From: Anaerosalibacter bizertensis
GTDB taxonomy: Bacteria; Bacillota; Clostridia; Tissierellales; Sporanaerobacteraceae
Assembly: GCF_009696605.1 (NCBI RefSeq)
Contig: NZ_VULR01000002.1
Coordinates: forward strand, 62,001 to 126,000
Direction: 5' to 3'
DNA length: 64,000 nt
Part shown: positions 41,713 through 60,113 of the stretch, one piece after another
Position numbering within the stretch: the stretch's first letter is position 1
Layout of the letters: every line of letters begins with the position of its first letter
Notes under the pieces: model-generated
Database searches by the model: none
What the model saw: only the letters and a program-made list of their open reading frames with translations
Told to the model about the DNA's origin: nothing
Made by a program: the position numbers and the translations under genes

Positions 41713-41996
41713 AGATTCTATGGTTGCTTATGCAATAATAGGGAATAAGGTGAGAGACCTTAACAGCCCCCGCTACTGTAAAAGCTACTAATACTCTGAT
41801 AATATCACTGAATATAATTTTGGGAAGATAAGGGTATTGGGTTAGAAGCTTTAAGTCAGGAGACCTGCCATAGATATAACGGAAAGCTAATTTCGGTGGG
41901 AAATTAAGCGTACGATTATATATTTTTGAAAATTTGTTTTTCATTTATTTAAATGTCTTATGCTAAAAATCCTACTGTGTAGGATTTTTTTATTTT
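41713..41996 (+). ncRNA. Cobalamin riboswitch 1 (consensus type) with terminator
   Basis: The core GGGAATAAGGTGAGAGACC ... ACAGCCCCCGCTACTGT (41741-41780) and AAGTCAGGAGACCTGCC (41852-41869) match the cobalamin aptamer consensus closely. The expression platform ends in a terminator (41965-41996, AATCCTAC/GTAGGATT plus T run). It precedes the cytosolic LRR gene by about 95 bp. Corrinoid binding would be expected to switch that gene off. Confidence 0.93.
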
Positions 41997-42089
41997 CTAA
42001 GAAAATATATAGATAGGATTCAATACAATGGATATAAAATTATGAATATTCAAACGATATAACAATGCAACTGAAAGGGGAAAAAGTAG

Positions 42090-42935
42090 ATGGCAAAGAG
42101 TAGGATACGGGTTTGGAATTCTGAAAATATTATTTTTACACTAGATAAGAATAGAGCAAAGCAATATAAGGAAGAAATTGTTGATATAAATGAAAAATAT
42201 GTAAGGATTTCAAACAATGCTTTTGAAAGAAATTTAAAAATAAAAGAAGTTGTTTTGCCAGATACCCTTGTCCTAATTGGTAAGAATGCATTTAAGGAAT
42301 GCAAATCTTTAAAAAAAATACATATACCAGAGTCTGTAAAAACTATTGAGGAAGGAGCTTTTAGAGATTGTGTAAGTTTGAAAATCGTTAAACTTCCAGA
42401 TGGAATGGACAAGCTAAATAAAAATATATTTAAAGGTTGTAATAATTTAAAAAAAGTGTTTATTTCCACAGAAAGTGAAATAAACACTATAGATTCAGAT
42501 GTTTTTAATAACTGTGAGAAACTGGAATATATCCAATTGCCAAAGGCTGTAAAAAGGATTGAATTCCGCTCTTTTTATAGAACAAAATCATTAAAGAAAA
42601 TTGCATTACCAGAAGATTTAGAGTACATAGGTAAAGAAGCTTTTTATTTATCAGGAATAGAAAATATTGAGATACCAGATAAGGTCAAAGAAATAGATGA
42701 TTCTGCTTTTAAAAATTGCAAATATATTGTAGGTGTTAGAATACCTGAAAATGTAAAAAGGATTGGCAAAGATGCATTTAGCGGGTGTAGAAGATTGAAA
42801 ACTATAGAAATACCTCATGATTTAGAAGACATTGGGGATAAAATTGTGAACCTACATACAACTGTAAGGTGTAGAGAAGGATCAAATGTAGATAATTATT
42901 GTGAAAAGTTCGGTATCAAAACCGAATACATTTAA
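42090..42935 (+). CDS. Leucine-rich-repeat protein (BspA-type, LRR_5), no signal peptide
   Basis: The 281-residue protein consists almost wholly of about eight BspA-type repeats of roughly 23 residues, of the form IPxxVKxIxxxAFxxCxxLKxI. No signal peptide or membrane segment is present, unlike most BspA-type proteins, so it should be cytosolic unless exported unconventionally. It lies behind a canonical cobalamin riboswitch and ahead of wall-anchored proteins with the same repeat type, suggesting a role tied to corrinoid supply. The function is unknown. RBS AAAGGGG is 9 bp before ATG. Confidence 0.82.
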   Translation: MAKSRIRVWNSENIIFTLDKNRAKQYKEEIVDINEKYVRISNNAFERNLKIKEVVLPDTLVLIGKNAFKECKSLKKIHIPESVKTIEEGAFRDCVSLKIVKLPDGMDKLNKNIFKGCNNLKKVFISTESEINTIDSDVFNNCEKLEYIQLPKAVKRIEFRSFYRTKSLKKIALPEDLEYIGKEAFYLSGIENIEIPDKVKEIDDSAFKNCKYIVGVRIPENVKRIGKDAFSGCRRLKTIEIPHDLEDIGDKIVNLHTTVRCREGSNVDNYCEKFGIKTEYI

Positions 42936-42949
42936 CAATTTAACTTTAA

Positions 42950-43197
42950 ATCAAAGAAAGCCAAAAATTTATTTATAAGGCAGGATAGTATATATTATCC
43001 TATTAAATCAGGTGAGAATCCTGAACAGATGCGCTACCGTGATAACCTTATTGAAAATAAAGGTTTAGTCGGAAATAGTTTCTTTGATAACAGAAAATGA
43101 ATCTAAATATTAATTAGATTTGTTTTGAGGAAAGTTCTACAGCATAAATAGAGCTTCTGTTTTAAGGGATTAACTACTTAGAACAGAAGCCTTTTTA
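42950..43197 (+). ncRNA. Cobalamin riboswitch 2 (variant core) with terminator
   Basis: ATCAGGTGAGAATCCTGA then ACAGATGCGCTACCGTGA (43008-43042) mirrors the aptamer core but with ATGCGC in place of the usual CCCCGC. AGTCGGAAATAG stands for the 3' conserved block. The terminator (43153-43197, GCTTCTGTTTTAAG stem, T run) overlaps an alternative hairpin AAGTTCTA/TAGAGCTT (about 43132-43157), as expected for an antiterminator. It controls the LRR-DUF4430 gene. Confidence 0.8.
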
Positions 43198-43222
43198 TTA
43201 TAAAATTAAGGAGGGTTTTATA

Positions 43223-46200
43223 TTGAAAAATAAGAGTATAAGAAAATGTTTATCTTTCTTGATGGCATTTACAATGATCTTTTCAACAATAAGTTTTTCA
43301 TTTGCAGAAGGACTAGAAGTAGACAAAGACACAGTAAAAGAAGCAAAACCAAATATATTTGAATTTGATAAAGAAACAGGCACTATCATAAAATATATTG
43401 GTTCCAGCAAAACTGTAACTATACCAGAAGAAATTGATGGAGTTAAAGTTGAAAAAATTGGTGATGGAGCTTTTGCAAGTAAAGAATTAGAATCTATAAC
43501 TATTGCAAATGGTGTAAAGAAAATAGGAGAGCGTGCTTTTTTAGGGAATAAATTGAAGTCAGTTGAAATCCCGAATAGTGTCACATGTATTGATAATTTA
43601 GCTTTTGCAGACAGTGAATTGACTAATGTTAAGTTTTCAAAGAATTTAACAAATATAGGAGTTGAAGCTTTTAAGGATAATAAGTTGGAAGAAGTTGAAA
43701 TCCCTAATAGTGTAAAAAATATTGATAGAAGTGCATTTCAAAACAATAAATTAACAAAAGCTAATATTCCAGATAATTTAGAAGACATAGGTTACCATGC
43801 ATTTGCAAATAATCAACTAGAGAAAGTGACTATACCAGGAAGTCTTAAAAAAGTTGATAATCATGCGTTTGCAGATAATCAAATAAAAGAACTTGTTATT
43901 CAAGATGGTGTAGAGATCTTGTATTGGAGTGCTTTTGCTAATAATCAATTAACAGAAGTTAATATTCCAAGTAGTGTTGTAACTATTGCAAATGGTGCTT
44001 TTAATAATAATCAATTAAGCAAAATTAATATTCCAAGTAGTGTTGAAACTATTGAAGAAGGAGCTTTTAGCAATAATAGAATTTTACAAGGAAATGCCCT
44101 TATAGATAAGCATGAAAAAGATATAGATATAGAAGAAGGAGCATTTTATAACAATGGTACTGATGGAAAAACAGAAATCACACCAATATTTTTAAAAGAT
44201 ACAAAGATTAAGATAATTACTAATTTAGAAGATGAACAATGGGTTACTGATCCAAACTTTTCTTTTAATGCTATAGCAAAAGTAGACGATGAAAAAGTAA
44301 AATTAGAAGTTGAACATCATGGCAAATATATACAGGGAGATGATAAAGGTAATTATTCACTTAACTTTACTGAAGAAGGAAGACAATATATTAATTTAAT
44401 AGCTATTCATGGTGAGGATATAGTACAAGAAACATATACAATTTATTATAAAGAATTGCCAGGTGAAGGGGATGGGGCTGACAACGAGCGTTTTAAGCCT
44501 ACTGTAAAGACCAACCTAAAAGATGGAATTACTATTAAATCATCAATTCACAATATATGGATAATAGCTAAGGATTATAAAGGAAATAATATAGATGCAA
44601 GTAATATTATAGTATATTGCAATGGGAAACCAGTGTCTATTAATTGGACTGACGGAGATCAAACCAGTTATGATCTTCCAATAAGAAATGGCGCTAATAG
44701 AGTTGATATTATTGTACGGGATTCTGAAGGAAATAGAATCAAATTAACATTTGAGAAAATTAAAGGTATTGTAAAAGATCAAGTTGTAGATGAAATTCCA
44801 ACTATTGAAACTACTTTAAAAAGTATGACTACAAAAGCAGACAAGATTACTTTTGATTTATGGGCAAAAGATCCTAGTGGGAATAAAATAAGTACTTCAA
44901 ATGTTAAAGTTACAAACAATGGAAAACCAGTCGGTATTAATTGGGATGATAAGGAAAAAACTAGTTATACTTTAAATCTAGAAATAGGAACAAACAATGT
45001 TGAGATTAAAGTTAATTATAATGGAAAAGATTATGTAGAAAATTATACTTTAATTCGTGAAGAAGCAGAAGATGGGGAAGTAATAGGTACATTTACTTTT
45101 AGTATGGAGGCTTCTACGGTAGGCTTAGGATATTTAATAGAACCTATTCAAGTTAATATTCATAAAGGAAGGAATGCGGCTCAAGAATTAGATGAAATAA
45201 TAAGAACACATGGATATAAATATGAAAAAACAGGGAGTCTTGAAAGTAGCTTTTATTTAGCAACTCTTTTAGATGGTGAAAATAAAATTTATAAAGTTAA
45301 ACCTAGAATTCCAGATGAATTAAAAAGAAAGTTAGAAGAAAACAGTGTTCCATATGACGAGGAAGATTATAATCCAGAATGGGGATTAGGCGAATTTGAC
45401 TTTAATTTTATGTCAGGATGGATGTATGCAGTAAACAATGTATTTCCAAATGTCGGATTTGCAGATAAATATCTTCAAGACGGAGACGTAATGCGTGTAC
45501 AATTTACATTAGCTTATGGCAATGATATTGGTGGCGCGGATGCCATGGGTGGAGGATATGAGAACAATATGTTCCCTAAAGTTAATAAAGATGAATTGAC
45601 TAAAAAAGTAGCAGAAATAAATAGTAATAGTAGAAAAGAAGAATATTTAAAAGTAAAACGAGTTAAGGATGCTTATGATGAATCTATTAGAGTTCTACAA
45701 GCATTTGGAGTTTCTCAAGAAGAAATTGATAAAACTTTAGAAAATTTAGAAACAGCTATAAACAATGTATCACAAGTAGTATCAGTAAAAGAAATAGAAG
45801 AAATAGAAGTAAACTATGGAACAAGTAAAGAAGAAGTAATAGAAAAATTACCAACAAAAGTTACATTAAACTTAAGCAATGGAACTAAAGAAGAAGTAGA
45901 TGTAACTTGGACAAGTGAAGAATATGCTGAAAACAAAGCAGGAGATTATACATTTGTAGGAAGCTATGAATTGCCAGAAGGAGTAACAGGAAAGAAACCA
46001 GAAGTAAATGTAAAAGTAACAGTAAAAGAAGAAGTAATAACAATAAAAGAAATATCTCAAATAGAAGAAATAGAAGTAAACTATGGAACAAGCAAAGAAG
46101 AAGTAATAGAAAAATTACCAACAAAAATTACATTAAACTTAAGCAATGGAACTAAAGAAGAAGTAGATGTAACTTGGACAAGTGAAGAGTATGATGAGAA

Positions 46201-47236
46201 TAAAGTAGGAGAATATACATTTATAGGAAGTTATGATTTACCAGAAGGAGTAACAGGAGAAAAACTAGAAGTAAGTGTTAAAATAATAGTAAAAGAAGAA
46301 CCAGTACCAGAAGTAGATAAGGCAAAACTAGAAGAAATAATAAATCTGGCTGAAAAGATAGATACAGATGGAAAGGCAGAAGAAGATATAAAAGCTTTAG
46401 AAGAAGCAATATTAGCAGGAAAAGAGATTCTTGCTAAAGAAGAAGTAACACAAGAAGAAGTAGATAATGCAGTAAAGGCGATAAAAACAGCAATATCTAA
46501 TTTGGAAGATAAAGAAGAACCAGTACCAGAAGTAGACAAATCAAAACTAGAAGAAATACTAAACTCAGCTGAAAGTCTAGAGATAGAAGATAAGACAGAA
46601 AAGAGTGTGAAAGCTCTAGAAGAAGCAATAGCAATAGGAAAAGAAATCTTTGTTAAAGAAGAAGTAACACAAGAAGAAGTAGACAGTGCAGTAGAGGCAA
46701 TAAAAACAGCAATATCTAACTTAGAAGATAAAGAAGAACCAAAACCAGAAGTAGATAAAACAAGATTAGAAGAAATACTAAATTCAGCTGAAAAGATAAA
46801 TATAGAAGGGAAAACAGAAGAAAGCATAAAAGCTTTGAATAAAGCAATATTAGCAGGAAAAGAGGTTCTTAATAAAGAAGGAGTAACACAGGAAGAGATA
46901 GATAGTGCAGTAGAAGCAATTAAATATGCAATAAATAGTTTGAAAGATAAAGAAGAACCTATTAAACCAACTGAGCCAACTGAACCACAAAAACCAAATG
47001 ACAATGACTCAGAAAAACCAATTAAACCGACTAAGCCACAAAAACCAAATAAACCAGGAACAATAGATAAAGTAGATAATAAACCAACTAAACCAAATGT
47101 AGAAGATAAACCAGCTAAAACATCACTTCCTAAAACAGGACAATCCTCTATGCTGTGGCTAAGTATTTTAGGAATAATCCTATTAGTAGTTGGAGCTAAA
47201 CTATGGATAGATAAAAGAAAAGAAAAAGAAGCATAA
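43223..47236 (+). CDS. LPXTG wall-anchored LRR + DUF4430 (transcobalamin-like beta domain) protein
   Basis: The 1337-residue protein starts at TTG after AAGGAGGG. Order: signal peptide (1-28); BspA LRRs (about 45-315); several beta-sandwich repeats (about 325-610); DUF4430 (about 618-775, STVGLGYLIEP ... SGWMYAVNNVFPNVG ... LQDGDVMRVQF), which resembles the C-terminal beta domain of transcobalamin/intrinsic factor; two Ig-like Big_4 domains (about 853-1025); three FIVAR repeats (about 1030-1240); Pro-rich spacer; LPKTG at 1302-1306 with hydrophobic helix and basic tail for sortase. It is riboswitch-controlled. I infer a surface corrinoid-binding protein. DNA from 46084 to the end is identical to the next gene. 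Confidence 0.85.
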   Translation: MKNKSIRKCLSFLMAFTMIFSTISFSFAEGLEVDKDTVKEAKPNIFEFDKETGTIIKYIGSSKTVTIPEEIDGVKVEKIGDGAFASKELESITIANGVKKIGERAFLGNKLKSVEIPNSVTCIDNLAFADSELTNVKFSKNLTNIGVEAFKDNKLEEVEIPNSVKNIDRSAFQNNKLTKANIPDNLEDIGYHAFANNQLEKVTIPGSLKKVDNHAFADNQIKELVIQDGVEILYWSAFANNQLTEVNIPSSVVTIANGAFNNNQLSKINIPSSVETIEEGAFSNNRILQGNALIDKHEKDIDIEEGAFYNNGTDGKTEITPIFLKDTKIKIITNLEDEQWVTDPNFSFNAIAKVDDEKVKLEVEHHGKYIQGDDKGNYSLNFTEEGRQYINLIAIHGEDIVQETYTIYYKELPGEGDGADNERFKPTVKTNLKDGITIKSSIHNIWIIAKDYKGNNIDASNIIVYCNGKPVSINWTDGDQTSYDLPIRNGANRVDIIVRDSEGNRIKLTFEKIKGIVKDQVVDEIPTIETTLKSMTTKADKITFDLWAKDPSGNKISTSNVKVTNNGKPVGINWDDKEKTSYTLNLEIGTNNVEIKVNYNGKDYVENYTLIREEAEDGEVIGTFTFSMEASTVGLGYLIEPIQVNIHKGRNAAQELDEIIRTHGYKYEKTGSLESSFYLATLLDGENKIYKVKPRIPDELKRKLEENSVPYDEEDYNPEWGLGEFDFNFMSGWMYAVNNVFPNVGFADKYLQDGDVMRVQFTLAYGNDIGGADAMGGGYENNMFPKVNKDELTKKVAEINSNSRKEEYLKVKRVKDAYDESIRVLQAFGVSQEEIDKTLENLETAINNVSQVVSVKEIEEIEVNYGTSKEEVIEKLPTKVTLNLSNGTKEEVDVTWTSEEYAENKAGDYTFVGSYELPEGVTGKKPEVNVKVTVKEEVITIKEISQIEEIEVNYGTSKEEVIEKLPTKITLNLSNGTKEEVDVTWTSEEYDENKVGEYTFIGSYDLPEGVTGEKLEVSVKIIVKEEPVPEVDKAKLEEIINLAEKIDTDGKAEEDIKALEEAILAGKEILAKEEVTQEEVDNAVKAIKTAISNLEDKEEPVPEVDKSKLEEILNSAESLEIEDKTEKSVKALEEAIAIGKEIFVKEEVTQEEVDSAVEAIKTAISNLEDKEEPKPEVDKTRLEEILNSAEKINIEGKTEESIKALNKAILAGKEVLNKEGVTQEEIDSAVEAIKYAINSLKDKEEPIKPTEPTEPQKPNDNDSEKPIKPTKPQKPNKPGTIDKVDNKPTKPNVEDKPAKTSLPKTGQSSMLWLSILGIILLVVGAKLWIDKRKEKEA

Positions 47237-47243
47237 AGTTATT

Positions 47244-47281
47244 AAGGATAAGAGCTTTTAAGAGTTCTTATCCTTTTTATA
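47244..47281 (+). terminator. Rho-independent terminator
   Basis: The AAGGATAAGAGCT/AGTTCTTATCCTT stem with T run follows the LRR-DUF4430 gene. An identical copy lies at 51896-51933. Confidence 0.88.
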
Positions 47282-47317
47282 TTGTTGAAAATAGCTATAT
47301 AGAAAATTAAAATTAGT

Positions 47318-47346
47318 TTGCCTTGAAAAATAAAATATGCTATACT
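47318..47346 (+). promoter_or_regulatory. Promoter upstream of riboswitch 3 (predicted)
   Basis: TTGCCT (47318-47323), a 17-bp spacer and TATACT (47341-47346) with an extended TG. An identical copy lies at 51970-51998 ahead of riboswitch 4. Confidence 0.65.
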
Positions 47347-47384
47347 TTAATAAGAATACATTGTTATAGTATTTTTTACAATTT

Positions 47385-47622
47385 AACTTTATATCAAGGA
47401 AGTCTCAATTTATTCTAAATTGAGAAGGATATGTAGATTATCCTCAGGGAATCAGGTGAAAATCCTGAACAGATGCGCTACCGTGAAATTCAGTCGGGAA
47501 CCTGCTCTTTGATGATAGAAAACAAGCCTCGCAAATAGGTTTTGTTTTGAGTAAAGTTCTACAGCATATATAGAGCTTCTGTCGTGAGTAAATTATTTAC
47601 TTGTGACAGAAGCTTTTTATTA
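47385..47622 (+). ncRNA. Cobalamin riboswitch 3 (variant core) with terminator
   Basis: GGGAATCAGGTGAAAATCC and ACAGATGCGCTACCGTGA (47447-47487) and CAGTCGGGAACCTGC (47491-47505) form a cobalamin-type core of the variant kind. The terminator at 47574-47622 has a perfect stem starting GCTTCTGTCGTGAGTAAA. It controls the alpha-barrel wall protein. Confidence 0.85.
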
Positions 47623-47649
47623 TAAAAAATTAGGACAAGGAGGAGAAAA

Positions 47650-50600
47650 ATGAAAAATTCTAATAAAAAGCTTACTGCTAGAATAATGTCTTTTGTTCTT
47701 ATATTTGCATTAGTTGTAAATATATTTCCGCAAATAGCTTCTGCAGAAGCTTATAATCCCAAAACAGATTATGAAAATATGGAGCTAAGATTTTGGGAAG
47801 ACAAAGAGCCAGATATTGGATTTTATATTAATGCAGCATCAAGATATATAATAGAAACAGTCCCTGAACCTAAAATGGGTTCTACCTTTGGAGAATGGTC
47901 TGTTATGGATTTGCTGCGAGGAATGTATACAGGTTATGACTATATAAACCATATTCCCAATAATTATTTTGAAGACTATTTAAAACGAATCGAAGAATAT
48001 GTTAGAGATAAAAAAGGTAATCTGGATCGTTCTAAATCCACTGAGTGGTCTCGTCTTATACTTACTCTTACATCATTAGGCTATGATATTACAGATGTAG
48101 CAAGTTATGATTTTATTGAAAGATTGTCTAAATCACATAGCTTTTCTCTTAGACAAGGAATCAATGGACCAATCTGGGAAATAATAGCTATGAATACAGG
48201 AGGATACAAATTTTATGAGCAACCTGATAATAAGGATGTAAATACTTTTGGAAAAATGATTAATTTTATATTGGAAAAAGAGATTACCCAAGAAAATGGA
48301 AAAGTTGGAGGATGGTCTCTCTTTGGCAAATTCCCAGATGTTGATATTACAGGTATGGCTTTACAAGCATTAGCCCCTTATTACTTAGATGAAAATAAAT
48401 ATAATGAGGTTCGTGAAGAAGATTCACCATCCTATGAAGAATTTGCAAAAGCAGTGGAAAGAGGTATTTATACCCTTTCAGAATTGCAAATAGATAATGG
48501 TGGATATAATGCTTGGGGAAATGTTAACGCTGAAAGTACTGTACAAGTTATTGTTGCGCTTACAGCTCTTAATATAGACCCACTATCAGAAGAAGTAAAT
48601 TTACCTCATATAGGTAAAAAATGTGGTTTTATTAAATCAGGATCTGTAAGAGATGGAGTATATACTGATAATATGATAGATGCTTTACTAACTTTCTGGG
48701 CTAAGGGAAGTGGTTCATCACCAGAAGTAGGAGGATTTAAACATGTAACAACAGGATATGATGGTGGCGGTGGCTCAGGTACAGGCGTTAATGCTATGGC
48801 AACAGACCAAGCTCTTTATGGACTAATTGCTTATGATCGTTATAAAAAAGGTGAAAAACCCTTATATGACATGACAGATATGAAAAATGGTGAATATAGA
48901 CATATGCTTTCTGATGAATATAGAGAATCCAAAGCTTATAATATAAACTATGTACTAGAGGAAGAAACTAGAACAGAAAAAATGTCTCCATATGCAGCAA
49001 TAGAGCTTCCGGAAGGAACTTCTACTGAAGAAAAGATATTTAAAAATTGGAACACAAAGGCTGATGGAAGCGGAACTACCTATAAGGCGGGAGAACTTTT
49101 ATCAATGCCTGAACACGAAATTACTTTATATGCTCAATATAGAAATAAAGGAGAATTTCCAGCAATAAAAGAGATTAAACCAGTAAATGATATATTAGTA
49201 GACATAGGTACAACAGAGGAAGAAGCAAAAGAACAACTGTCAAAAGCAACAAAGATTATAGATTTTGAAAATGAAGAACATGAGGTAGGATTAACATGGA
49301 ATATAGAAAATTATAATGGGAACGAAATAGGAAATTATATAGCTATTGGAACTTTTGAACTTCCACAAGGGGTGAAACAAACAGACCCACCTACAGAATT
49401 AAAAGTTGAAACTATAGTTAAGGTATCAAAACAAATTCCAGAATCTGAACTAGAATTTGATAAGGACACCAATACAATAACAGGATATAAAGGAAAAGAT
49501 AGGGACGTGGTTATACCAAAAGAAATTGATGGTGTGCCTGTTTGGACAATAGGAGAAGGGGCTTTTAAGGAGAAAAACTTAAATACTATTTATATTCCAA
49601 ATAGTGTAATGGCTATAGGAAGAGAAGCTTTTGCAGGAAATGAATTAGTTGAAGTAAACATTCCAAATAGTACTATGTATATAAAAAGCGGTGCCTTTAG
49701 AGATAATAAATTAAGTAAAATAAATATTTCAAAAAATGTATTAAAGATAGAAAGTAACGCTTTTAGAAATAATAAATTAATAGAAGTAAATATTCCTACA
49801 GGAATAGTGAATATTGGCCATAGTGCTTTTAGAGAGAATCAATTGTCTAAAGTGAATATTCCAGATAGTGTATTAGAATTAGGAGATTATGTTTTTAGTC
49901 AAAATAAATTAATTGAAGCAAATATTCCTAAAGGTATAAATAAAGTAGGAAGTGGTTTGTTTTATGAAAATCAGTTAGCGACTATTGATATCCCTAATGG
50001 TATAATAGATGTTGGAGCCAGTGCTTTTGCTGAAAATCACTTAACTGAAGTAGATATTCCAGATAGTGTAGTATCTATTGGGAATGATGCTTTTTCATCA
50101 AATGAATTAAAAACATTAAAGATATCAGAAAAAGCTACAGATATCGGAGAGAATGCTTTTAAAGATAATAAATTAAGTGAAGTATATATTCCAAATAGTG
50201 TGAAAAACATTAAGGACAATGCATTTGCTAACAATAATATTTTAAAAGGAAATGCAAGAATTAATAACAATAAAGTAAATGTAAATATAAAAGAAAATGC
50301 CTTTGATTATAATGGAGAAGATGGAAAGACAAAAATTACTCCAGTATTTTTAAGAGATGAAGTGGAAAATCTAGCTATTAATAAAGTAGAAATTTTAAAA
50401 GGAAATAGTATAATAGCTGAAGGAGAAATAAATGGAAATGAGATTATAATACAATTACCAAAAGGATTCCCGGAAAGCGAAGTTGAAAAGATAGACCTTG
50501 GATCTTATACTTTAAAAATTCTTGCTACAGAAGAAGCAAATATAAAACAAGAAAATGGTGCTAGTGGTGATTGGTCAACTGGAAAAATTAATACAGTAGG

Positions 50601-51888
50601 AATAGATAGCCCGACAAGATTTACTATTGAAAAATATGGCTTAGAGAAAGAATATATATTAACAATAAAAGCACCAGAAGTAGAAATTGTTACAATAACA
50701 GGTGTTGAGCAAATAGAAGATGTGGAAGTAAATTTTGGAACAAGCAAAGAAGAAGTAATAGAAAAATTACCAACAAAAATTACATTAAACTTAAGCAATG
50801 GAACTAAAGAAGAAGTAGATGTAACTTGGACAAGTGAAGAGTATGATGAGAATAAAGTAGGAGAATATACATTTATAGGAAGTTATGATTTACCAGAAGG
50901 AGTAACAGGAGAAAAACTAGAAGTAAGTGTTAAAATAATAGTAAAAGAAGAACCAGTACCAGAAGTAGATAAGGCAAAACTAGAAGAAATAATAAATCTG
51001 GCTGAAAAGATAGATACAGATGGAAAGGCAGAAGAAGATATAAAAGCTTTAGAAGAAGCAATATTAGCAGGAAAAGAGATTCTTGCTAAAGAAGAAGTAA
51101 CACAAGAAGAAGTAGATAATGCAGTAAAGGCGATAAAAACAGCAATATCTAATTTGGAAGATAAAGAAGAACCAGTACCAGAAGTAGACAAATCAAAACT
51201 AGAAGAAATACTAAACTCAGCTGAAAGTCTAGAGATAGAAGATAAGACAGAAAAGAGTGTGAAAGCTCTAGAAGAAGCAATAGCAATAGGAAAAGAAATC
51301 TTTGTTAAAGAAGAAGTAACACAAGAAGAAGTAGACAGTGCAGTAGAGGCAATAAAAACAGCAATATCTAACTTAGAAGATAAAGAAGAACCAAAACCAG
51401 AAGTAGATAAAACAAGATTAGAAGAAATACTAAATTCAGCTGAAAAGATAAATATAGAAGGGAAAACAGAAGAAAGCATAAAAGCTTTGAATAAAGCAAT
51501 ATTAGCAGGAAAAGAGGTTCTTAATAAAGAAGGAGTAACACAGGAAGAGATAGATAGTGCAGTAGAAGCAATTAAATATGCAATAAATAGTTTGAAAGAT
51601 AAAGAAGAACCTATTAAACCAACTGAGCCAACTGAACCACAAAAACCAAATGACAATGACTCAGAAAAACCAATTAAACCGACTAAGCCACAAAAACCAA
51701 ATAAACCAGGAACAATAGATAAAGTAGATAATAAACCAACTAAACCAAATGTAGAAGATAAACCAGCTAAAACATCACTTCCTAAAACAGGACAATCCTC
51801 TATGCTGTGGCTAAGTATTTTAGGAATAATCCTATTAGTAGTTGGAGCTAAACTATGGATAGATAAAAGAAAAGAAAAAGAAGCATAA
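47650..51888 (+). CDS. LPXTG wall-anchored alpha/alpha-barrel (intrinsic-factor alpha-like) + LRR protein
   Basis: The 1412-residue protein starts at ATG behind AAGGAGGAG. Order: signal peptide (1-33); terpenoid-cyclase/prenyltransferase-like alpha/alpha toroid (about 40-410; repeats such as DVDITGMALQALAPYY, LSELQIDNGGYNAWG, NAESTVQVIVALTAL); InlB/Flg_new-type repeat (about 430-500); Big_4 (505-595); BspA LRRs (600-895); Big_4 (about 1020-1100); three FIVAR repeats; LPKTG at 1377-1381. The toroid is the fold of the N-terminal domain of intrinsic factor and transcobalamin; enzyme members carry DxDD or metal motifs that are not evident here. It probably partners the preceding DUF4430 protein in corrinoid capture. 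Confidence 0.85.
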   Translation: MKNSNKKLTARIMSFVLIFALVVNIFPQIASAEAYNPKTDYENMELRFWEDKEPDIGFYINAASRYIIETVPEPKMGSTFGEWSVMDLLRGMYTGYDYINHIPNNYFEDYLKRIEEYVRDKKGNLDRSKSTEWSRLILTLTSLGYDITDVASYDFIERLSKSHSFSLRQGINGPIWEIIAMNTGGYKFYEQPDNKDVNTFGKMINFILEKEITQENGKVGGWSLFGKFPDVDITGMALQALAPYYLDENKYNEVREEDSPSYEEFAKAVERGIYTLSELQIDNGGYNAWGNVNAESTVQVIVALTALNIDPLSEEVNLPHIGKKCGFIKSGSVRDGVYTDNMIDALLTFWAKGSGSSPEVGGFKHVTTGYDGGGGSGTGVNAMATDQALYGLIAYDRYKKGEKPLYDMTDMKNGEYRHMLSDEYRESKAYNINYVLEEETRTEKMSPYAAIELPEGTSTEEKIFKNWNTKADGSGTTYKAGELLSMPEHEITLYAQYRNKGEFPAIKEIKPVNDILVDIGTTEEEAKEQLSKATKIIDFENEEHEVGLTWNIENYNGNEIGNYIAIGTFELPQGVKQTDPPTELKVETIVKVSKQIPESELEFDKDTNTITGYKGKDRDVVIPKEIDGVPVWTIGEGAFKEKNLNTIYIPNSVMAIGREAFAGNELVEVNIPNSTMYIKSGAFRDNKLSKINISKNVLKIESNAFRNNKLIEVNIPTGIVNIGHSAFRENQLSKVNIPDSVLELGDYVFSQNKLIEANIPKGINKVGSGLFYENQLATIDIPNGIIDVGASAFAENHLTEVDIPDSVVSIGNDAFSSNELKTLKISEKATDIGENAFKDNKLSEVYIPNSVKNIKDNAFANNNILKGNARINNNKVNVNIKENAFDYNGEDGKTKITPVFLRDEVENLAINKVEILKGNSIIAEGEINGNEIIIQLPKGFPESEVEKIDLGSYTLKILATEEANIKQENGASGDWSTGKINTVGIDSPTRFTIEKYGLEKEYILTIKAPEVEIVTITGVEQIEDVEVNFGTSKEEVIEKLPTKITLNLSNGTKEEVDVTWTSEEYDENKVGEYTFIGSYDLPEGVTGEKLEVSVKIIVKEEPVPEVDKAKLEEIINLAEKIDTDGKAEEDIKALEEAILAGKEILAKEEVTQEEVDNAVKAIKTAISNLEDKEEPVPEVDKSKLEEILNSAESLEIEDKTEKSVKALEEAIAIGKEIFVKEEVTQEEVDSAVEAIKTAISNLEDKEEPKPEVDKTRLEEILNSAEKINIEGKTEESIKALNKAILAGKEVLNKEGVTQEEIDSAVEAIKYAINSLKDKEEPIKPTEPTEPQKPNDNDSEKPIKPTKPQKPNKPGTIDKVDNKPTKPNVEDKPAKTSLPKTGQSSMLWLSILGIILLVVGAKLWIDKRKEKEA

Positions 51889-51895
51889 AGTTATT

Positions 51896-51933
51896 AAGGA
51901 TAAGAGCTTTTAAGAGTTCTTATCCTTTTTATA
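51896..51933 (+). terminator. Rho-independent terminator (repeat copy)
   Basis: The same hairpin as 47244-47281. It ends the alpha-barrel wall protein gene. Confidence 0.88.
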
Positions 51934-51969
51934 TTGTTGAAAATAGCTATATAGAAAATTAAAATTAGT

Positions 51970-51998
51970 TTGCCTTGAAAAATAAAATATGCTATACT
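51970..51998 (+). promoter_or_regulatory. Promoter upstream of riboswitch 4 (predicted)
   Basis: TTGCCT-17-TATACT, identical to 47318-47346. It would drive the membrane-level B12 operon. Confidence 0.65.
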
Positions 51999-52036
51999 TT
52001 AATAAGAATACATTGTTATAGTATTTTTTACAATTT

Positions 52037-52286
52037 AACTTTATATCAAGGAAGTCTCAATTTATTCTAAATTGAGAAGGATATGTAGATTATCCTCAGG
52101 GAATCAGGTGAAAATCCTGAACAGATGCGCTACCGTGAAATTCAGTCGGGAACCTGCTCTTTGATGATAGAAAACAAGCCTCGCAAATAGGTTTTGTTTT
52201 GAGTAAAGTTCTACAGCATATATAGAGCTTCTATCTTAGGTTTTTGGAATAAAAACCTCTAGGATAGAAGCTCTTTTATTTTTGTT
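52037..52286 (+). ncRNA. Cobalamin riboswitch 4 (variant core) with terminator
   Basis: The aptamer is identical to riboswitch 3. The terminator differs (52227-52286; GAGCTTCTATC arm with its complement and a T run), so the expression platform has evolved separately. It controls the operon from 52324 through the ECF importer. Confidence 0.85.
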
Positions 52287-52323: not shown

Positions 52324-54336
52324 ATGAAAAATATTTATGAAAAATTTAAAAAAATAATATCTGATAAACCAAAACTTTTTAGATATTTTACTTCACTAAT
52401 TCTAATAATCTTCTCTATAAGCTATATGGGGAATGTTTTGAACAATCAAGATGTGTTAGACCCTGAAAATCCTATTAAAGGATTTGCAGAAAATAACTCT
52501 CAAGTTGCATTAGCAAGCCAAGACGAGCCTTTAGTAGAAATAGAGGAAATTAACGATGAAAATGCAGAAAAGGAAACAGAAGATAAAAATACTCAAGATA
52601 ATAAAAAAGGTGCTGAAAATAATGAAAACGAAGGTGATAATGAAGAGGGTGATGGTGAAAGCGATGAAAACAACCCAGAGTCTTCAAATGTTGAAATATT
52701 AAATCCTGAAGATGCTAATAAAAATAATGATAAATCCAAGATAAATGAATATTTTACAACTAGCATTATACATAATGAAATAGTTACTGAAAAAGAGTAT
52801 TCTTTTATAATTAAGCAGAAAAACCCTAATCTTAAAGTTAAAAAGACAGAGATCTTCTTAAATGATATCTTAGTTCCAGAATTTAAAGGAACTGTTATTT
52901 TAGATGAGGGCAAAAACTCAATTAAGGTTAAAGTAACATATGAAGATGTTGATGGTAAAATTTTCTCAGTGTCTAAAACTTATTCAGTCCATCTTAATAC
53001 AGAAGATATTATTATATATTCTAGTCTAAACGAAGAAATGAAAGTTACAAAAGACAAATTATCTTTTACAGCATGGGCTAAAAAGGGAGAAAAGACTCTA
53101 CCTATAGATGTTAAATTAAATGAACAGAAAGTAAAAGGTGAGAATGGAAATCGCTATAATGTAACTCTAAATGAAGGGGAAAATAAAGTTATTGTATCTG
53201 CTTCAGATGATTCCGGAAATACTGAAGAGAAAAGTTTTTTTATAATTTATGAAAAAAAAGATACTAAGCTTAGAATAATTACAAACCTAAAAGAACAACA
53301 TGTTACAACTGATGAGATTAAGTTTAATGCAATAGCAAAATTTGGCGAAGACAAAGCTAAATTAACTGTTAAAATCAATGGCACTCCCATATTTGGTGAT
53401 GATAAAGGGAATTACACAGCTGATTTAATAGAAGGGGGAAATTATATACTTTTAGTGGCTGAATATGGCGATGAGACCCTTATTGAAGAATATCGTATCC
53501 AATATGAAGTATTGCCACCAGGTGGAGAAGATGATGATTGGGAAGATCCTAATAATCCTAAAATAGAGACTAACTTAAAAGATGGAATCACTGTTAAATC
53601 ATCAATATACGATATATATGTAATAGCTAGGGATCATAAAGGTAATAGGATAAATCCAAGTCAAATGCGGGTTATGTGTAATGGTGAACAAGTAGGTATC
53701 CATTGGGAAGATGGAGTTCAGACTAGTTATAAACTGCCTATAAGAAATGGTGGAAATACAATTATGATAAGCGCATATGACTCTGAAGGGAAAATAACTA
53801 TAGAGGAGTTCCATATTAAAGGTATTGTAAAAGATAAAGGGGAAGTAACTGGTCACGCCACAATTAGTATTGAAGCTACAACTATAGGTTTAGGATACAT
53901 TGTACCGCCAACTAAGGTTGAAATACGTGAAGGAAAACCTGCTTCTACTGTAATTGATAAGTTATTAAAAGAAAAAGGATTTGAATATGAAAGCCAAGGG
54001 AAAATAGATAATGCTTTTTATTTAGCTCATCTTATTAAACCTGGGTTGGTATCTAATCCTGTGATTCCAGAAGATTTAGCTGAGCTTGTAGAAGCGGAAG
54101 CAGATCGTTTTAACCCTGATGATTATAATCAGGACAGTTTAGGAGAGTTTGATTTCTCAAATGGTTCTGGTTGGATGTACAGTGTTAATGGTCACTATCC
54201 AAATTATGGTTTTTCAGATTGTTATTTATTAGATGGAGATGTAATGAGGATAAGATTTACACTATTCTATGGAAGAGATATTGGAGGCTCTGGAGGTTTA
54301 GGAGGTAGTGGAAGCAACTGGCATAAAGAATGGTAA
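52324..54336 (+). CDS. Membrane-anchored DUF4430 protein with beta-sandwich repeats
   Basis: The 670-residue protein has an N-terminal signal anchor (about residues 20-38), an acidic low-complexity spacer (about 65-130), three to four beta-sandwich repeats (about 140-500) and a C-terminal DUF4430 (about 510-655; TTIGLGYIVPP, SGWMYSVNGHYPNYG, LLDGDVMRIRF), ending in a Gly-rich tail. Its repeats and DUF4430 are close paralogues of those in the 43223 protein but lack LRR and LPXTG, so it should stay at the membrane. It is the first gene of the riboswitch-4 operon and is proposed to be a beta-type corrinoid-binding subunit. Confidence 0.83.
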   Translation: MKNIYEKFKKIISDKPKLFRYFTSLILIIFSISYMGNVLNNQDVLDPENPIKGFAENNSQVALASQDEPLVEIEEINDENAEKETEDKNTQDNKKGAENNENEGDNEEGDGESDENNPESSNVEILNPEDANKNNDKSKINEYFTTSIIHNEIVTEKEYSFIIKQKNPNLKVKKTEIFLNDILVPEFKGTVILDEGKNSIKVKVTYEDVDGKIFSVSKTYSVHLNTEDIIIYSSLNEEMKVTKDKLSFTAWAKKGEKTLPIDVKLNEQKVKGENGNRYNVTLNEGENKVIVSASDDSGNTEEKSFFIIYEKKDTKLRIITNLKEQHVTTDEIKFNAIAKFGEDKAKLTVKINGTPIFGDDKGNYTADLIEGGNYILLVAEYGDETLIEEYRIQYEVLPPGGEDDDWEDPNNPKIETNLKDGITVKSSIYDIYVIARDHKGNRINPSQMRVMCNGEQVGIHWEDGVQTSYKLPIRNGGNTIMISAYDSEGKITIEEFHIKGIVKDKGEVTGHATISIEATTIGLGYIVPPTKVEIREGKPASTVIDKLLKEKGFEYESQGKIDNAFYLAHLIKPGLVSNPVIPEDLAELVEAEADRFNPDDYNQDSLGEFDFSNGSGWMYSVNGHYPNYGFSDCYLLDGDVMRIRFTLFYGRDIGGSGGLGGSGSNWHKEW

Positions 54337-54361
54337 TTGAAAGATAGAGAGGTAGCTGAAT

Positions 54362-56320
54362 ATGGAAAAGAATGTGTTGAAGATGAAATATAAAATTATA
54401 TCTGTTCTATTATCAATAGTAATATTGATGACTGGATTTTCACATATATCCTATGGAGAATCGATTCATAAGAATTATAGTGAAGAAGAGATATTGGAAA
54501 TAATTGAAGGGATTATAAACTGGAAAAAATCATCTACAGGTGTAACTAAAGAAGGTTCGCTATTAAATAACAAATTTTTAGAAGATGCAGGGGATACCAT
54601 AGGAGATTGGTATCCTATTGGCATTGGACGAATAGGATATATAGATGATTATGAAGCTTATTTAGCTGTAATTGAAGACAAAGTTAGTCAGCGTTATTTA
54701 GAGGAAGATAAGCTAAGTGGGAATAAATCTACTGAATGGCATAGGATATCCTTAGCTATCCTATCCATGGGTGGGGATCCCACAAATATAGGGAAAGATG
54801 CAAAAGGAAAGCCTATAAATCTTATTGCAGATGGTACTTATAATAGAGAAAAATCTTTAGGGGCCCAAGGTATTAATGGATGGACCTGGGGATTAATAGC
54901 CCTTGATAGCATGAGATATATTACTCCAGAAGATGCCTCTTATACTAGGGATGATATAATTACAGAAATTATGAAATTGCAATTAGCCGATGGAGGTTTT
55001 TCTCTTCAAGATGAGGAAGCTGATCCAGATATAACAGCTATGGTATTACAGGCTTTTGCACCTTATTATAATAGTGAACAAAAATATACTTATACTCAGA
55101 AAAAAACAAATAAAAAGGTAACTAAAACAGTACGTCAAGTAGTAGATGAGGCATTAGAGACTTTATCAAGTCTTCAATTAGATGATGGAGATTTTGAAAG
55201 TTGGGGTGCGGAAAATTCTGAAAGTACAGCCCAAGTATTGGTGGCTCTTTGTGCTCTTGGAAAAGATCCTATTAATGATGCAAGATTTATAAAGAATGGT
55301 AATACATTATTAGATGGATTAATGAAATATAGGATGGAAGATGGAGGATTTATACATTCAAAAGTTTATGATTCAGAAAATCCTACATCTAAACCAGATG
55401 AATCCAATTCTATGGCCAGTGAGCAGGCACTATATTCCCTTGTAGCTTTATCCAGATATAAGGGCGGTTATAGAAGTCTTTATGATTTTCGTCCTGAAAT
55501 GGATGAAAATATAAAATCACAAATTAATTCTGTGCAAGAATCTATCGATAGTATTCCAGCTTCAGTGTCATCTAAAGATGCAAGCAAGGTAAAACATATT
55601 TTTTCTGAATATTTAAAGATACCTATTTCTGAAAGATCTTATGTTTATAATTATTATAAATTATCAGATGCTATGGAATCTCTTAAGATAGACAATACTT
55701 CTGAACCAATAGCTGCTAATATAGGAGTAAATGAGAAGGGAAATGGTGCAATTACCCCTATATTTGATGGAAGTGAAGCTCTTTCTTCTGGCGTTTTATT
55801 TACAGAAGAAGATGTTAATAAAGTTAAGAATTTGCCCGAAAAGTTGACTACAGAGCATTATGTAGAAGTAGTAAAATTAATTAAAAAATTAGAGAGAGCA
55901 AAAAATAAGGATGAATATATCAATCTATTAGATGATTTGAATGTAAAAAAGAAAGAAATTGAAAAAATAAAAGAGGAAATAGAATTATTAAACAATGAAA
56001 TATTGGACAAGTTATATCCTTTTGACAAGCTTTCCATAAAAGATAAGAAAAATGTAGATGAAATAGTATCTAGATTTAATAAGCTTAGTAACTATGATCA
56101 AAAAAAGGTTCTTCGTTATGAGGATGTAATAAAGTCTAAGACTCAAGTAGATAATTTAATTCGTGCTCGAATTATAACTATAGTTATAGTTATTATAATT
56201 TGTATTGGTATGTTTTTCATTGTACGTAGAATGAAAAAACGTAAAAGAGAAAAAATGAAACAAAAAATGTTATTAATAGATGATGAGGAATTTGAAGAAT
56301 TTAGTGATGAGGAGGAGTAG
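54362..56320 (+). CDS. Membrane-anchored alpha/alpha-toroid protein (intrinsic-factor alpha-like)
   Basis: The 652-residue protein has a signal peptide (about 1-30). A terpenoid-cyclase-like alpha/alpha toroid follows (about 35-375; repeats DPDITAMVLQAFAPYY, LSSLQLDDGDFESWG, NSESTAQVLVALCAL), parallel to the 47650 protein. A helical/coiled region (about 480-600) leads to a C-terminal membrane helix (about 603-622) with a short basic-acidic cytosolic tail. It is thus a type I membrane version of the wall-anchored alpha protein. It lies between two DUF4430 genes in the riboswitch-4 operon. Proposed role: corrinoid handling at the membrane. Confidence 0.85.
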   Translation: MEKNVLKMKYKIISVLLSIVILMTGFSHISYGESIHKNYSEEEILEIIEGIINWKKSSTGVTKEGSLLNNKFLEDAGDTIGDWYPIGIGRIGYIDDYEAYLAVIEDKVSQRYLEEDKLSGNKSTEWHRISLAILSMGGDPTNIGKDAKGKPINLIADGTYNREKSLGAQGINGWTWGLIALDSMRYITPEDASYTRDDIITEIMKLQLADGGFSLQDEEADPDITAMVLQAFAPYYNSEQKYTYTQKKTNKKVTKTVRQVVDEALETLSSLQLDDGDFESWGAENSESTAQVLVALCALGKDPINDARFIKNGNTLLDGLMKYRMEDGGFIHSKVYDSENPTSKPDESNSMASEQALYSLVALSRYKGGYRSLYDFRPEMDENIKSQINSVQESIDSIPASVSSKDASKVKHIFSEYLKIPISERSYVYNYYKLSDAMESLKIDNTSEPIAANIGVNEKGNGAITPIFDGSEALSSGVLFTEEDVNKVKNLPEKLTTEHYVEVVKLIKKLERAKNKDEYINLLDDLNVKKKEIEKIKEEIELLNNEILDKLYPFDKLSIKDKKNVDEIVSRFNKLSNYDQKKVLRYEDVIKSKTQVDNLIRARIITIVIVIIICIGMFFIVRRMKKRKREKMKQKMLLIDDEEFEEFSDEEE

Positions 56321-56323
56321 AAC

Positions 56324-56863: not shown

Positions 56864-56891
56864 AAATTAAAAATAAGATAAGGTGATAAAA

Positions 56892-57773
56892 ATGAAAAGT
56901 TTTTCTTCGTTCCATCCAACTGTTTTATTTTTATATTATTTATCGGTTATATTTATCAGCATGTTTACAATGAATCCAGTGATTTTAGGATGTTCATTAA
57001 TTGGGAGTATACTTTTTTTCTCAATGATGAATTCCCCTAAAGTAGTGTTGAAGGATATAGGATATTATTTATTAGTTTTTATTCTTATAGCTATTACAAA
57101 TCCTATATTTAGCCATAATGGTGAAACAATACTTTTTTTTCTTAATGATAATCCAGTAACCTTAGAAGCGATTATTTATGGAATAGCTATTGCTACTATG
57201 CTAGTTGCAGTTATATTTTGGAGTAAATCCTATAGTGAAATAATGACCTCAGATAAATTTGTATATCTATTTGGTAGGACAATTCCTAAATTATCTTTAG
57301 TTCTTTCTATGGCTTTACGCTTTATACCTATGCTTAAACTGCAAATAAAAAAGGTAAATCAAGTTCAAAAAACCCTTGGATTATACACTACAGATAGTAT
57401 AACAGATAGGATTTTAAGTGGAATAAGAGTTTTAAATAGTGTATTGACTTGGTCCTTAGAGAATGCTATAAATCGAGGAGATTCAATGAGGGCTAGGGGT
57501 TATGGTTTGAAAGGAAGAACAAACTTTTCACTATTTAAATTTTATAAAAGAGATGGCATGTTATTAATTGCTATTATTTTAATTTTAGTAACTGCAATTT
57601 TAGGTTTTGTCTTCAATATATTTGATTTCTATTATTATCCAGCAGTTTCATCATTAGAAATAACTGGGGTTGGAATTTTAGAATATATGTTTGTTTTTAT
57701 ACTAATGATTATACCTTTTATTATTGAAGTAAAGGAGAATATACAATGGAAATTATTAAGGTCAAAGATCTAG
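56892..57773 (+). CDS. ECF transporter T component (EcfT/CbiQ family)
   Basis: The protein has 293 residues from ATG 56892; the GTG at 56883 lies in the AAGGTGA site. It has five to six membrane helices and the coupling-helix motifs typical of EcfT: SLVLSMALRFIPML and the two Ala-Arg-Gly type motifs, here INRGDSMRARGYG. EcfT links substrate-binding S component to the ATPases. It overlaps the ATPase gene by 28 bp. Its dedicated clustering with riboswitch-controlled genes marks this as a group I-like vitamin importer, most likely for cobalamin. Confidence 0.88.
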   Translation: MKSFSSFHPTVLFLYYLSVIFISMFTMNPVILGCSLIGSILFFSMMNSPKVVLKDIGYYLLVFILIAITNPIFSHNGETILFFLNDNPVTLEAIIYGIAIATMLVAVIFWSKSYSEIMTSDKFVYLFGRTIPKLSLVLSMALRFIPMLKLQIKKVNQVQKTLGLYTTDSITDRILSGIRVLNSVLTWSLENAINRGDSMRARGYGLKGRTNFSLFKFYKRDGMLLIAIILILVTAILGFVFNIFDFYYYPAVSSLEITGVGILEYMFVFILMIIPFIIEVKENIQWKLLRSKI

Positions 57774-59440
57774 ATTTTACATATCCTGAGCAAAAGACAA
57801 GAGCTTTAAAGGACGTATCATTTTCCATTGAACCAGGTGAGTTTATAGTGATTTGCGGAGAGTCGGGTTCTGGGAAAACAACTCTTTTAAAATTACTAAA
57901 AAGAGAGCTTGCACCACATGGAAATAAGACTGGTAGCATTTTTTACAAAGGAACAGAGCTAGAAGAGCTGGATGATAGAACGGCAGCAAGTGAAATTGGA
58001 TATGTGATGCAAAATCCAGAAAATCAAATAGTAACAGATAAAGTTTGGCATGAATTAGCATTTGGGTTAGAAAACATGGGAGTTCCTACCCCTGTTATTC
58101 GCAGAAGGGTTGGTGAAATGGCTAACTTTTTTGGTATCCATCAGTGGTTTAGAAAAAAAACTACAGAACTTTCAGGTGGTCAGAAACAACTTTTAAATTT
58201 AGCTTCGATTATGGCAATGCAACCAGAACTTCTTATTTTGGATGAACCTACTTCACAATTAGATCCTATAGCGGCTTCTGATTTTATTACTACTTTGCAA
58301 AAATTGAATAGGGATTTAGGACTAACCATTATATTAGTAGAGCATCGTCTAGAAGAAGTTATACCTATTGCAGATAAAGTAATGATAATGGAAAATGGAA
58401 GTATGATCCTATATGATAAGCCTGAATACATAGGGCAAAAGCTGAAGGAAATCGACAAAAATCATAAAATGCTATTAGCTCTACCTAGCGCTGTTAGAAT
58501 TTTTAATGGGTTAGATTCTGAAGGGAAAAGTCCATTAACTGTTCGTGATGGTAGAGAATTTTTATCTAATAATTATAAAAATCATATAAATGTTTTGGAA
58601 AGACCTTTAAAAGAAGATGAGAATAGGGATGAAAATATATTGGAATTAAAGAATATCTGGTTTCGATATGAAAGGGATTTACCAGATATATTAACTGGCG
58701 TTAATTTCCAGGCAAAAAAAGGAGAAATTATTAGTATTTTAGGTGGAAATGGTTCTGGAAAGACTACATTGTTAAGTGTCATGGCTGGGCAGCACAGACC
58801 TTATAGAGGCAAAATTTCAATTAGGGGCAAAAGAATAAGGGACTATAAAGGTAAAGATTTATATAGGCATAATATAGCATTGTTGCCCCAGGATCCACAG
58901 ACTGTTTTTTTGAAATCTAATGTTCGAGAAGATTACAAAGAAATAGGAAAAGTAATGGGGTATACGAAAGAAGAAATTAAAAACAATACAGAAGAGATTG
59001 CAGAAATGTTGTCTATTCAAAAATTATTAGATAAACATCCTTATGACTTAAGCGGAGGAGAACAACAGAAAGTAGCACTAGGAAAAATACTTTTGCTAGA
59101 ACCAAAGATTCTTCTATTAGATGAACCAACAAAAGGTATAGATGCATTTTCTAAAAGTGTTTTACACGACATTTTAATAAATTTAAAAAGACAAGGGGTA
59201 ACTATTATAATGGTTACTCATGATGTAGAATTTGCGGCTATAGTTTCTGATAGTTGTGGATTATTTTTTGATGGAGAAATTATTTCTATGGGGACACCAG
59301 TTGACTTTTTTTCTGATAATAATTTCTATACAACAGCTGCTAATCGTATATCTAGACATATGTACAATAATGCTATAACTTGTGAAGATGTTATTGAGAT
59401 ATGCAAATTAAATGGAGTGAAAGAAATTCATGCGAAATAA
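57746..59440 (+). CDS. ECF transporter double ATPase (EcfA-EcfA' fusion)
   Basis: The 564-residue protein contains two complete ABC ATPase domains in one chain: Walker A GESGSGKTT and GGNGSGKTT, signatures LSGGQKQLLNLA and LSGGEQQKVALG, Walker B LLILDEPTSQ and ILLLDEPTKG. Fused ATPases are frequent in ECF importers that have a dedicated module. It overlaps ecfT at the 5' end and the S-component gene by 11 bp at the 3' end, so the three are translationally coupled. Confidence 0.93.
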   Translation: MEIIKVKDLDFTYPEQKTRALKDVSFSIEPGEFIVICGESGSGKTTLLKLLKRELAPHGNKTGSIFYKGTELEELDDRTAASEIGYVMQNPENQIVTDKVWHELAFGLENMGVPTPVIRRRVGEMANFFGIHQWFRKKTTELSGGQKQLLNLASIMAMQPELLILDEPTSQLDPIAASDFITTLQKLNRDLGLTIILVEHRLEEVIPIADKVMIMENGSMILYDKPEYIGQKLKEIDKNHKMLLALPSAVRIFNGLDSEGKSPLTVRDGREFLSNNYKNHINVLERPLKEDENRDENILELKNIWFRYERDLPDILTGVNFQAKKGEIISILGGNGSGKTTLLSVMAGQHRPYRGKISIRGKRIRDYKGKDLYRHNIALLPQDPQTVFLKSNVREDYKEIGKVMGYTKEEIKNNTEEIAEMLSIQKLLDKHPYDLSGGEQQKVALGKILLLEPKILLLDEPTKGIDAFSKSVLHDILINLKRQGVTIIMVTHDVEFAAIVSDSCGLFFDGEIISMGTPVDFFSDNNFYTTAANRISRHMYNNAITCEDVIEICKLNGVKEIHAK

Positions 59441-60113
59441 AAAAATAAACTATTTTATTATAATGATACTAATTCCACTATCAATTGCCTTAGGAGTAAT
59501 TTTATTTAAAGATAGAAAGTATAATCTTATTTCTATTATAATAGCTTTTTTATCATGTTTACCTATTTTCTTTTCCTTTGAAAAAGGGAAAACAAGCACA
59601 AGAAAAATGACGATTTTATCAGTGATGGTAGCAATTTCTGTAGCAGGTCGTTTTGTTTTTGCAGCCATTCCAGGGTTTAAACCTGTTACAGCAATTGTAG
59701 TTATTACTGCTATTTACTTTGGCTCTGAGGCAGGATTTTTAACTGGTTCACTATCTGCAATTATTTCAAATATATACTTTGGACAAGGACCTTGGACCCC
59801 TTTCCAAATGTTCTCGTGGGGAATGCTTGGACTCATAGCCGGGTTACCATTCATGCGAAAATTGCTGTTGAAAAATAAAATTATATTAGCTATTTATGGG
59901 GTTTTTGCAGGTGTAATATATTCTTTAATGATGGATGTATGGACTGTACTTGCCATGGATGGTGTTTTTAATGCAAGACGTTATCTTGCAGCAGTAACTA
60001 CTGCTCTTCCTGTTATGGCTATTTATGCAGTATCCAATGTGGTTTTCCTAATGCTTGCAATAAAGCCCTTTGGTGAGAAGCTAGAGAGAATAAAAACTAA
60101 GTATGGAATTTAA
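59430..60113 (+). CDS. ECF transporter S component, predicted cobalamin-specific (CblT/CbrT-like)
   Basis: The 227-residue protein has six predicted membrane helices. The segment VVITAIYFGSEAGFLTGSL and FGQGPWTPFQMFSWGMLGLIAG is typical of ECF S components of the family predicted to carry cobalamin or related large vitamins. It overlaps the ATPase gene. The cobalamin riboswitch at the head of this operon supplies the main argument for specificity. A corrinoid precursor such as cobinamide is an alternative substrate. Confidence 0.82.
   Translation: MRNKKINYFIIMILIPLSIALGVILFKDRKYNLISIIIAFLSCLPIFFSFEKGKTSTRKMTILSVMVAISVAGRFVFAAIPGFKPVTAIVVITAIYFGSEAGFLTGSLSAIISNIYFGQGPWTPFQMFSWGMLGLIAGLPFMRKLLLKNKIILAIYGVFAGVIYSLMMDVWTVLAMDGVFNARRYLAAVTTALPVMAIYAVSNVVFLMLAIKPFGEKLERIKTKYGI

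Follow-up and report, generated by a model that had tools for sequence, protein, structure and literature searches.

A locus of Anaerosalibacter bizertensis with cobalamin riboswitches, predicted to scavenge corrinoids through transcobalamin-like extracellular domains and a CbrT-type importer

Analysis of a 64,000-nucleotide stretch of the Anaerosalibacter bizertensis genome (hereafter the window; contig NZ_VULR01000002.1, positions 62001-126000 of a 2.46-Mb genome) uncovered a locus that is very likely a corrinoid scavenging system under cobalamin riboswitch control, in which extracellular alpha/alpha-toroid and DUF4430 domains would feed an energy-coupling factor (ECF) importer of the CbrT type. 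Every gene of interest across 41704-60113 is carried on the plus strand; coordinates are given in window numbering and proteins are named by their start positions. An earlier note, made from the letters of this DNA alone, had listed four cobalamin-riboswitch-like leaders, two LPXTG proteins, three DUF4430 proteins, two toroid proteins, and an EcfT, a double EcfA and an S component, and had read them as corrinoid capture and import by intrinsic-factor-like parts. All of these parts were recovered, and the interpretation is well supported by the leaders, the CbrT match, gene co-occurrence, and protein fold, but the claim that such a system had not been described was wrong (see below). The locus is made up as follows (leucine-rich repeat, LRR).

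41704..41886, + strand: leader 1, a full-length cobalamin riboswitch aptamer (RF00174, 116.7 bits) leading LRR gene 42090
42090..42935, + strand: BspA-type LRR protein, 281 aa (PF13306, 216 bits), between leaders 1 and 2
42942..43098, + strand: leader 2, a compact, diverged cobalamin-riboswitch-like leader (custom covariance model R2, 113.1 bits, E 1.2e-20)
43223..47236, + strand: LPXTG wall-anchored protein, 1337 aa, with BspA LRR repeats, DUF4430, Ig-like region, three FIVAR, and LPXTG
47383..47523, + strand: leader 3, a compact cobalamin riboswitch (RF00174, 38.1 bits)
47650..51888, + strand: LPXTG wall-anchored protein, 1412 aa, with alpha/alpha toroid, LRR repeats, Ig-like region, three FIVAR, and LPXTG
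52035..52175, + strand: leader 4, the compact cobalamin riboswitch of the transport operon (RF00174, 38.1 bits)
52324..54336, + strand: secreted protein, 670 aa, with beta-sandwich repeats, then a C-terminal DUF4430 (PF14478, 28.1 bits)
54362..56320, + strand: toroid protein, 652 aa, with signal peptide, alpha/alpha toroid, helical stalk, and C-terminal transmembrane helix
56324..56863, + strand: membrane-anchored DUF4430 (transcobalamin beta-domain-like) protein, 179 aa (PF14478, 69.7 bits)
56883..57773, + strand: EcfT (CbrV-like, CbiQ family) transmembrane component (PF02361, 36.1 bits)
57746..59440, + strand: EcfAA (CbrU-like), two fused ATPase domains (two PF00005 domains; TIGR04520)
59430..60113, + strand: CbrT-family S component (family profile match to PDB 6FNP chain A, E 1e-24)

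Three of the four leaders exceed the Rfam RF00174 gathering score of 31.5 bits (116.7, 38.1, and 38.1 bits), while leader 2 (42942-43098) was not reported by the RF00174 search. A covariance model, R2, built from seven compact leaders from this genome and two relatives with leader 2 left out, identified leader 2 as a homolog of the compact RF00174 leaders (113 bits, E 1.2e-20), and the view that only three leaders are present was dropped. Judging by the alignments, most of the peripheral P8-P12 region of the RF00174 consensus is missing from the compact leaders. Two further compact leaders lie past the window at contig positions 127643 and 130753 (window-equivalent ~65643 and ~68753), and six of the nine cobalamin leaders known in the genome fall within this 27-kb stretch; the remaining ones sit ahead of cobalt uptake and cobalamin synthesis genes. 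Terminator-like hairpins accompany leader 1 (41965-41989, z -5.2), leader 2 (~43152-43194, z -5.5), leader 3 (47572-47616, a 20-pair stem, z -5.5), and leader 4 (ahead of 52324, z -5.1), and each of the three compact leaders has a stem-loop and T-run directly 5′ of the start codon. Because the terminator stems vary in sequence between leaders yet remain paired, termination-type control is suggested. Leader 1 is the cluster's sole full-length riboswitch; directly 3′ of it lies the BspA-type LRR gene (42090-42935) and not a DUF4430 gene, and a B12 role for this LRR gene is not obvious.

LPXTG anchors were found on proteins 43223 and 47650. DUF4430 lies above the Pfam cut-off in 43223 (29 bits, residues 722-761), 52324 (28 bits, residues 608-646), and 56324 (70 bits). 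The toroids, spanning approximately residues 31-420 in 47650 and 41-375 in 54362, score poorly by sequence (17-21 bits, short of the cut-off; PF00432 at 20.8 bits in 54362), but that of 54362 is clear by fold, with AlphaFold2 (AF2) pLDDT mostly >90 over the toroid and toroid-fold matches with Z up to 22, and that of 47650 aligns with the 54362 toroid family. Membrane anchoring, proposed in the earlier note for 52324, 54362, and 56324, agrees with hydropathy for the latter two, which contain a C-terminal helix and an N-terminal hydrophobic helix, respectively; the same analysis gave no clear transmembrane helix in 52324, just a hydrophobic N-terminus, and anchoring of this protein is uncertain. 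Across 76 operon toroids, simple pattern rules, with overlapping types counted in each, called C-terminal transmembrane helices in about 40, S-layer homology (SLH) domains in 24, and lipoboxes in nine. The toroid is thus nearly always tethered outside the cell, and the anchor type switches between lineages.

The analysis computed the parts, leaders, CbrT homology, two domain folds, and conserved gene order; termination-type control, ligand binding, the sandwich geometry, and a hand-off to CbrT are proposed. At low intracellular cobalamin, the leaders would let transcription pass the terminators. Wall- or membrane-tethered toroid and DUF4430 (beta-grasp) domains would then sandwich B12 or a related corrinoid in the manner of transcobalamin and intrinsic factor, and the membrane-anchored toroid 54362 and DUF4430 protein 56324 would pass this ligand on to the S component of CbrT type, with uptake presumably powered by EcfT and the double ATPase EcfAA. 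A further step, in which the wall-borne halves of a split intrinsic factor pass corrinoid to membrane halves that close over CbrT and load it, each tier under its own leader, is offered tentatively, and we regard such a two-tier relay as rather doubtful. Alternatively, 43223 and 47650 may be adhesins, or independent storage or decoy binders that share the regulon, with import carried out by the membrane operon alone. This is a strong contender, and we lean only slightly away from it: the BspA LRR, Ig-like, and FIVAR regions are typical of surface adhesion, and many related loci lack LPXTG versions, which make up five of the 126 larger DUF4430/toroid proteins. However, the two wall-anchored proteins split the same two domains between them, have their own cobalamin leaders, and adjoin the importer, and in other loci large secreted DUF4430/toroid proteins, anchored by SLH domains or transmembrane helices, again lie upstream of the operon.

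The S component 59430, encoded adjacent to EcfT and two ATPase domains, is closer to CbrT than to other S components. A profile of 24 S-component relatives matched CbrT of Lactobacillus delbrueckii (PDB 6FNP) at E 1e-24, compared with 0.02 for FolT and others. By sequence, 59430 is therefore assigned to the CbrT family, with cobalamin or cobinamide as its predicted ligand. Following SEED annotations, we take CbrV to be EcfT, CbrU the duplicated ATPase, and CbrT the S component. A paper on a Lactobacillus plasmid (PMC6722938) applies these three names to an ECF transporter, and ECF-CbrT is an experimentally proven importer of cobalamin and cobinamide (PMC5997447). In some related loci (L043, L044, L070, L075, and L077-L080), EcfAA carries the CbrT S component as a C-terminal fusion, giving proteins of ~880-920 aa, an unusual ECF architecture.

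Two alternative substrates were considered. The system could take cobinamide, another cobamide, or a lower-ligand precursor rather than complete cobalamin, as salvage in a genome with synthesis genes, which we judge unlikely while giving it appreciable weight. CbrT moves cobinamide besides cobalamin (PMC5997447), and the genome encodes CbiA, CbiB, CbiD, CbiT, CbiL, a cobyric acid synthase match, CobT, CobU, and CobS; on the other side, whole cobalamin is the ligand of the animal carriers with the same fold, and sequence offers nothing that separates these ligands. Import of riboflavin or folate, with an incidental B12 link, is very improbable: the S component does match PF07155 (ECF-ribofla_trS, 43.6 bits) and TIGR04518 (folate, 28 bits, under the cut-off of 60), but the family profile prefers CbrT over FolT by the margin given above, and a cobalamin leader lies upstream here and in most relatives.

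Likeness to transcobalamin and intrinsic factor was found by fold comparison only. DUF4430 models match the transcobalamin beta domain (5no0/5np4) with TMt 0.70-0.75 (E 9e-5 to 4e-3), that of the window protein 56324 with TMt 0.71, and the partner alpha/alpha toroid fold was found for the toroids of 54362 and of locus L142. In some related loci the two domains share one chain: in L135, the operon toroid and DUF4430 proteins are joined via two transmembrane helices, while L142, L128, L136, and L153 encode compact modules in which the toroid is followed by a short linker and DUF4430. Joint toroid-DUF4430 alignments were checked for coverage ahead of folding. The AF2 model of the L142 module (pLDDT 90.5, pTM 0.71) was compared with the PDB using Foldseek, and structures of transcobalamin, intrinsic factor, and haptocorrin filled the top 15 places (E 6e-12 to 1e-9), followed by terpene cyclases (E 1e-4); the transcobalamin match covers both domains. 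When the window's own pair, 54362 and 56324, was folded as one read-through chain, each domain was modeled confidently, but the whole was not (pTM 0.52). Terpene cyclases and sugar epimerases head the VIA-align structural matches because the toroid fills that list, and such a ranking does not point to enzyme activity. A role of the toroids as secreted enzymes (terpene cyclases, prenyltransferases, or glycosidases) in place of ligand binding is given next to no weight. Squalene-hopene cyclase and drimenyl diphosphate synthase toroid folds do score highest (Z 22-23), but where the class II cyclase motif DxDD(T) was located in relatives, it is nearly always D-x-D-hydrophobic-T, which makes an enzymatic role unlikely; extracellular location, B12 context, and DUF4430 fusions also argue against it.

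The association of these components recurs well beyond A. bizertensis. Relatives of the S component occur in 49 of 249 genomes of the order, and the 40 CbrT-centered loci contain DUF4430 in 38 cases, EcfT in 34, and a toroid in 30. A scan of one genome per species recovered at least 588 encoded DUF4430 relatives, and the best 80 DUF4430-centered loci, all Bacillota by title, include EcfT (75), a toroid (71), and CbrT (68); this set was picked by operon-type DUF4430 and is hence no independent estimate, with gaps partly reflecting contig ends. The gene order toroid-DUF4430-EcfT-EcfAA-CbrT is conserved across loci. The earlier note had suggested a genome survey for co-occurrence; among 398 evenly drawn genomes of the phylum, 114 have both CbrT and DUF4430, three CbrT only, 12 DUF4430 only, and 269 neither (Fisher p 3e-81; two hit lists were cross-tabulated on the assumption, from identical handles and counts, that they cover the same genomes). 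A second leader model, built from 18 riboswitches and run over 73 related loci, gave 56 matches, all 56 on the operon strand, and in 40 of the 42 loci with a match at E<=0.01 the leader is upstream of EcfT. Gut genera with the system include Ruminococcus and Flavonifractor. In L056-L060 (Peptoniphilaceae-like), a small lipoprotein-like DUF4430 protein and a short CbrT-like S component form a minimal pair, with no riboswitch, toroid, or adjacent EcfT detected. Together these results indicate a real, widespread system, with B12 scavenging as its probable role.

Several observations weigh against this assignment. The domains of the L142 model are placed unlike those of transcobalamin (rmsd ~23 A over both), so that structure prediction reproduced the match across both domains but not their mutual placement, and the sandwich is not predicted. 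For the window pair, the top matches are terpene cyclases and GH105 enzymes, with transcobalamin behind (E 4e-4), because the toroid dominates the comparison. DUF4430 and toroid sequence profiles searched against the PDB retrieved neither transcobalamin nor intrinsic factor. In a few genera the DUF4430-CbrT pair occurs with no detectable riboswitch or toroid. Finally, scavenging is not obviously essential, since the genome holds many B12-synthesis genes.

The C-terminus of each LPXTG protein and the leader that follows it lie within an exact direct repeat of 1497 bp:

46084..47580, + strand: copy 1, LPXTG protein C-terminus plus following leader
50736..52232, + strand: copy 2, LPXTG protein C-terminus plus following leader

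The closest named relatives by DUF4430 protein are a coal metagenome-assembled genome (98% identity) and Anaerosalibacter massiliensis (90%). In a near-identical relative the contig breaks off within the leader matching the repeat, and A. massiliensis carries a pair of similar compact leaders in the positions that correspond to the two copies; for these reasons the sequence evidence favors, without proving, a real repeat rather than an assembly artefact. The cluster runs on beyond the window (~65647-75486 in window-equivalent numbering) with a compact leader and an LPXTG/FIVAR protein of 858 aa, then a second compact leader and a two-gene unit encoding a 266-aa DUF4430-like protein and a 1581-aa protein, the latter with DUF4430, a toroid-like region (weak sequence matches only), and an LPXTG-like end. 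Elsewhere in the window, group II intron pieces at 32535-34921 (two D1D4 matches and two domain V-type matches) suggest two group II introns, or one nested inside the other.

The core interpretation is an already published prediction. In 2007, Burroughs et al. (PMC1796856) reported surface proteins with transcobalamin-like SLBB domains and Gram-positive anchors, encoded in operons with CbiO and CbiQ and including toroid, FIVAR, and Ig fusions and paralogous copies, and proposed them as B12 scavengers and as the origin of the animal carriers. The locus shares with that system the secreted or wall-anchored DUF4430/SLBB proteins, their pairing or fusion with toroids, FIVAR and Ig regions, paralogues, and operons with a CbiO-like ATPase and a CbiQ-like permease. 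Unlike that paper, which contains no riboswitches or S component and reports that bacteria with such proteins are usually without B12 synthesis, the present genome has a leader for each unit, a CbrT-like S component, and many synthesis genes. New points are the predicted control of each unit by a riboswitch of its own, including a compact form of the leader, together with the assignment to CbrT, the breadth of distribution, and the presence alongside B12-synthesis genes. ECF-CbrT of L. delbrueckii (PMC5997447; 6FNP) has the same S-component family and ECF vitamin-import mechanism, but its ECF module is shared, whereas the present locus has its own genes for EcfT and a fused double ATPase beside that of the S component, along with extracellular toroid and DUF4430 partners. 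BtuG/BtuB of Bacteroides (PMC6143338) is alike in working, as high-affinity surface capture feeding a B12 importer; unlike the proteins described here, BtuG is a beta-propeller lipoprotein of the outer membrane acting with a TonB-dependent channel; the two systems are not homologous, and the present organism lacks an outer membrane. Intrinsic factor, transcobalamin, and haptocorrin have both folds, and some bacterial relatives share their single-chain domain order, but in the bacterial system the domains are mostly on separate tethered proteins and the model does not reproduce the domain sandwich. A literature search, with most subscription journals and preprints outside its scope, found no experimental study of bacterial DUF4430 in B12 uptake.

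Approximately 30% of the 398 sampled phylum genomes carry the CbrT-DUF4430 pair, and the system also occurs in gut genera; for these reasons it may be a major route for Gram-positive bacteria competing for B12. ECF S components are not known to need an extracellular binding head. If true, the scavenging model would revise the view that S components work without extracellular binding partners, and under the two-tier relay the ECF importer would have a binding head of two parts outside the cell. The scavenging system would also tie the ancestor of the human B12 carriers to an ECF importer of bacteria, a link that the single-chain modules make directly testable.

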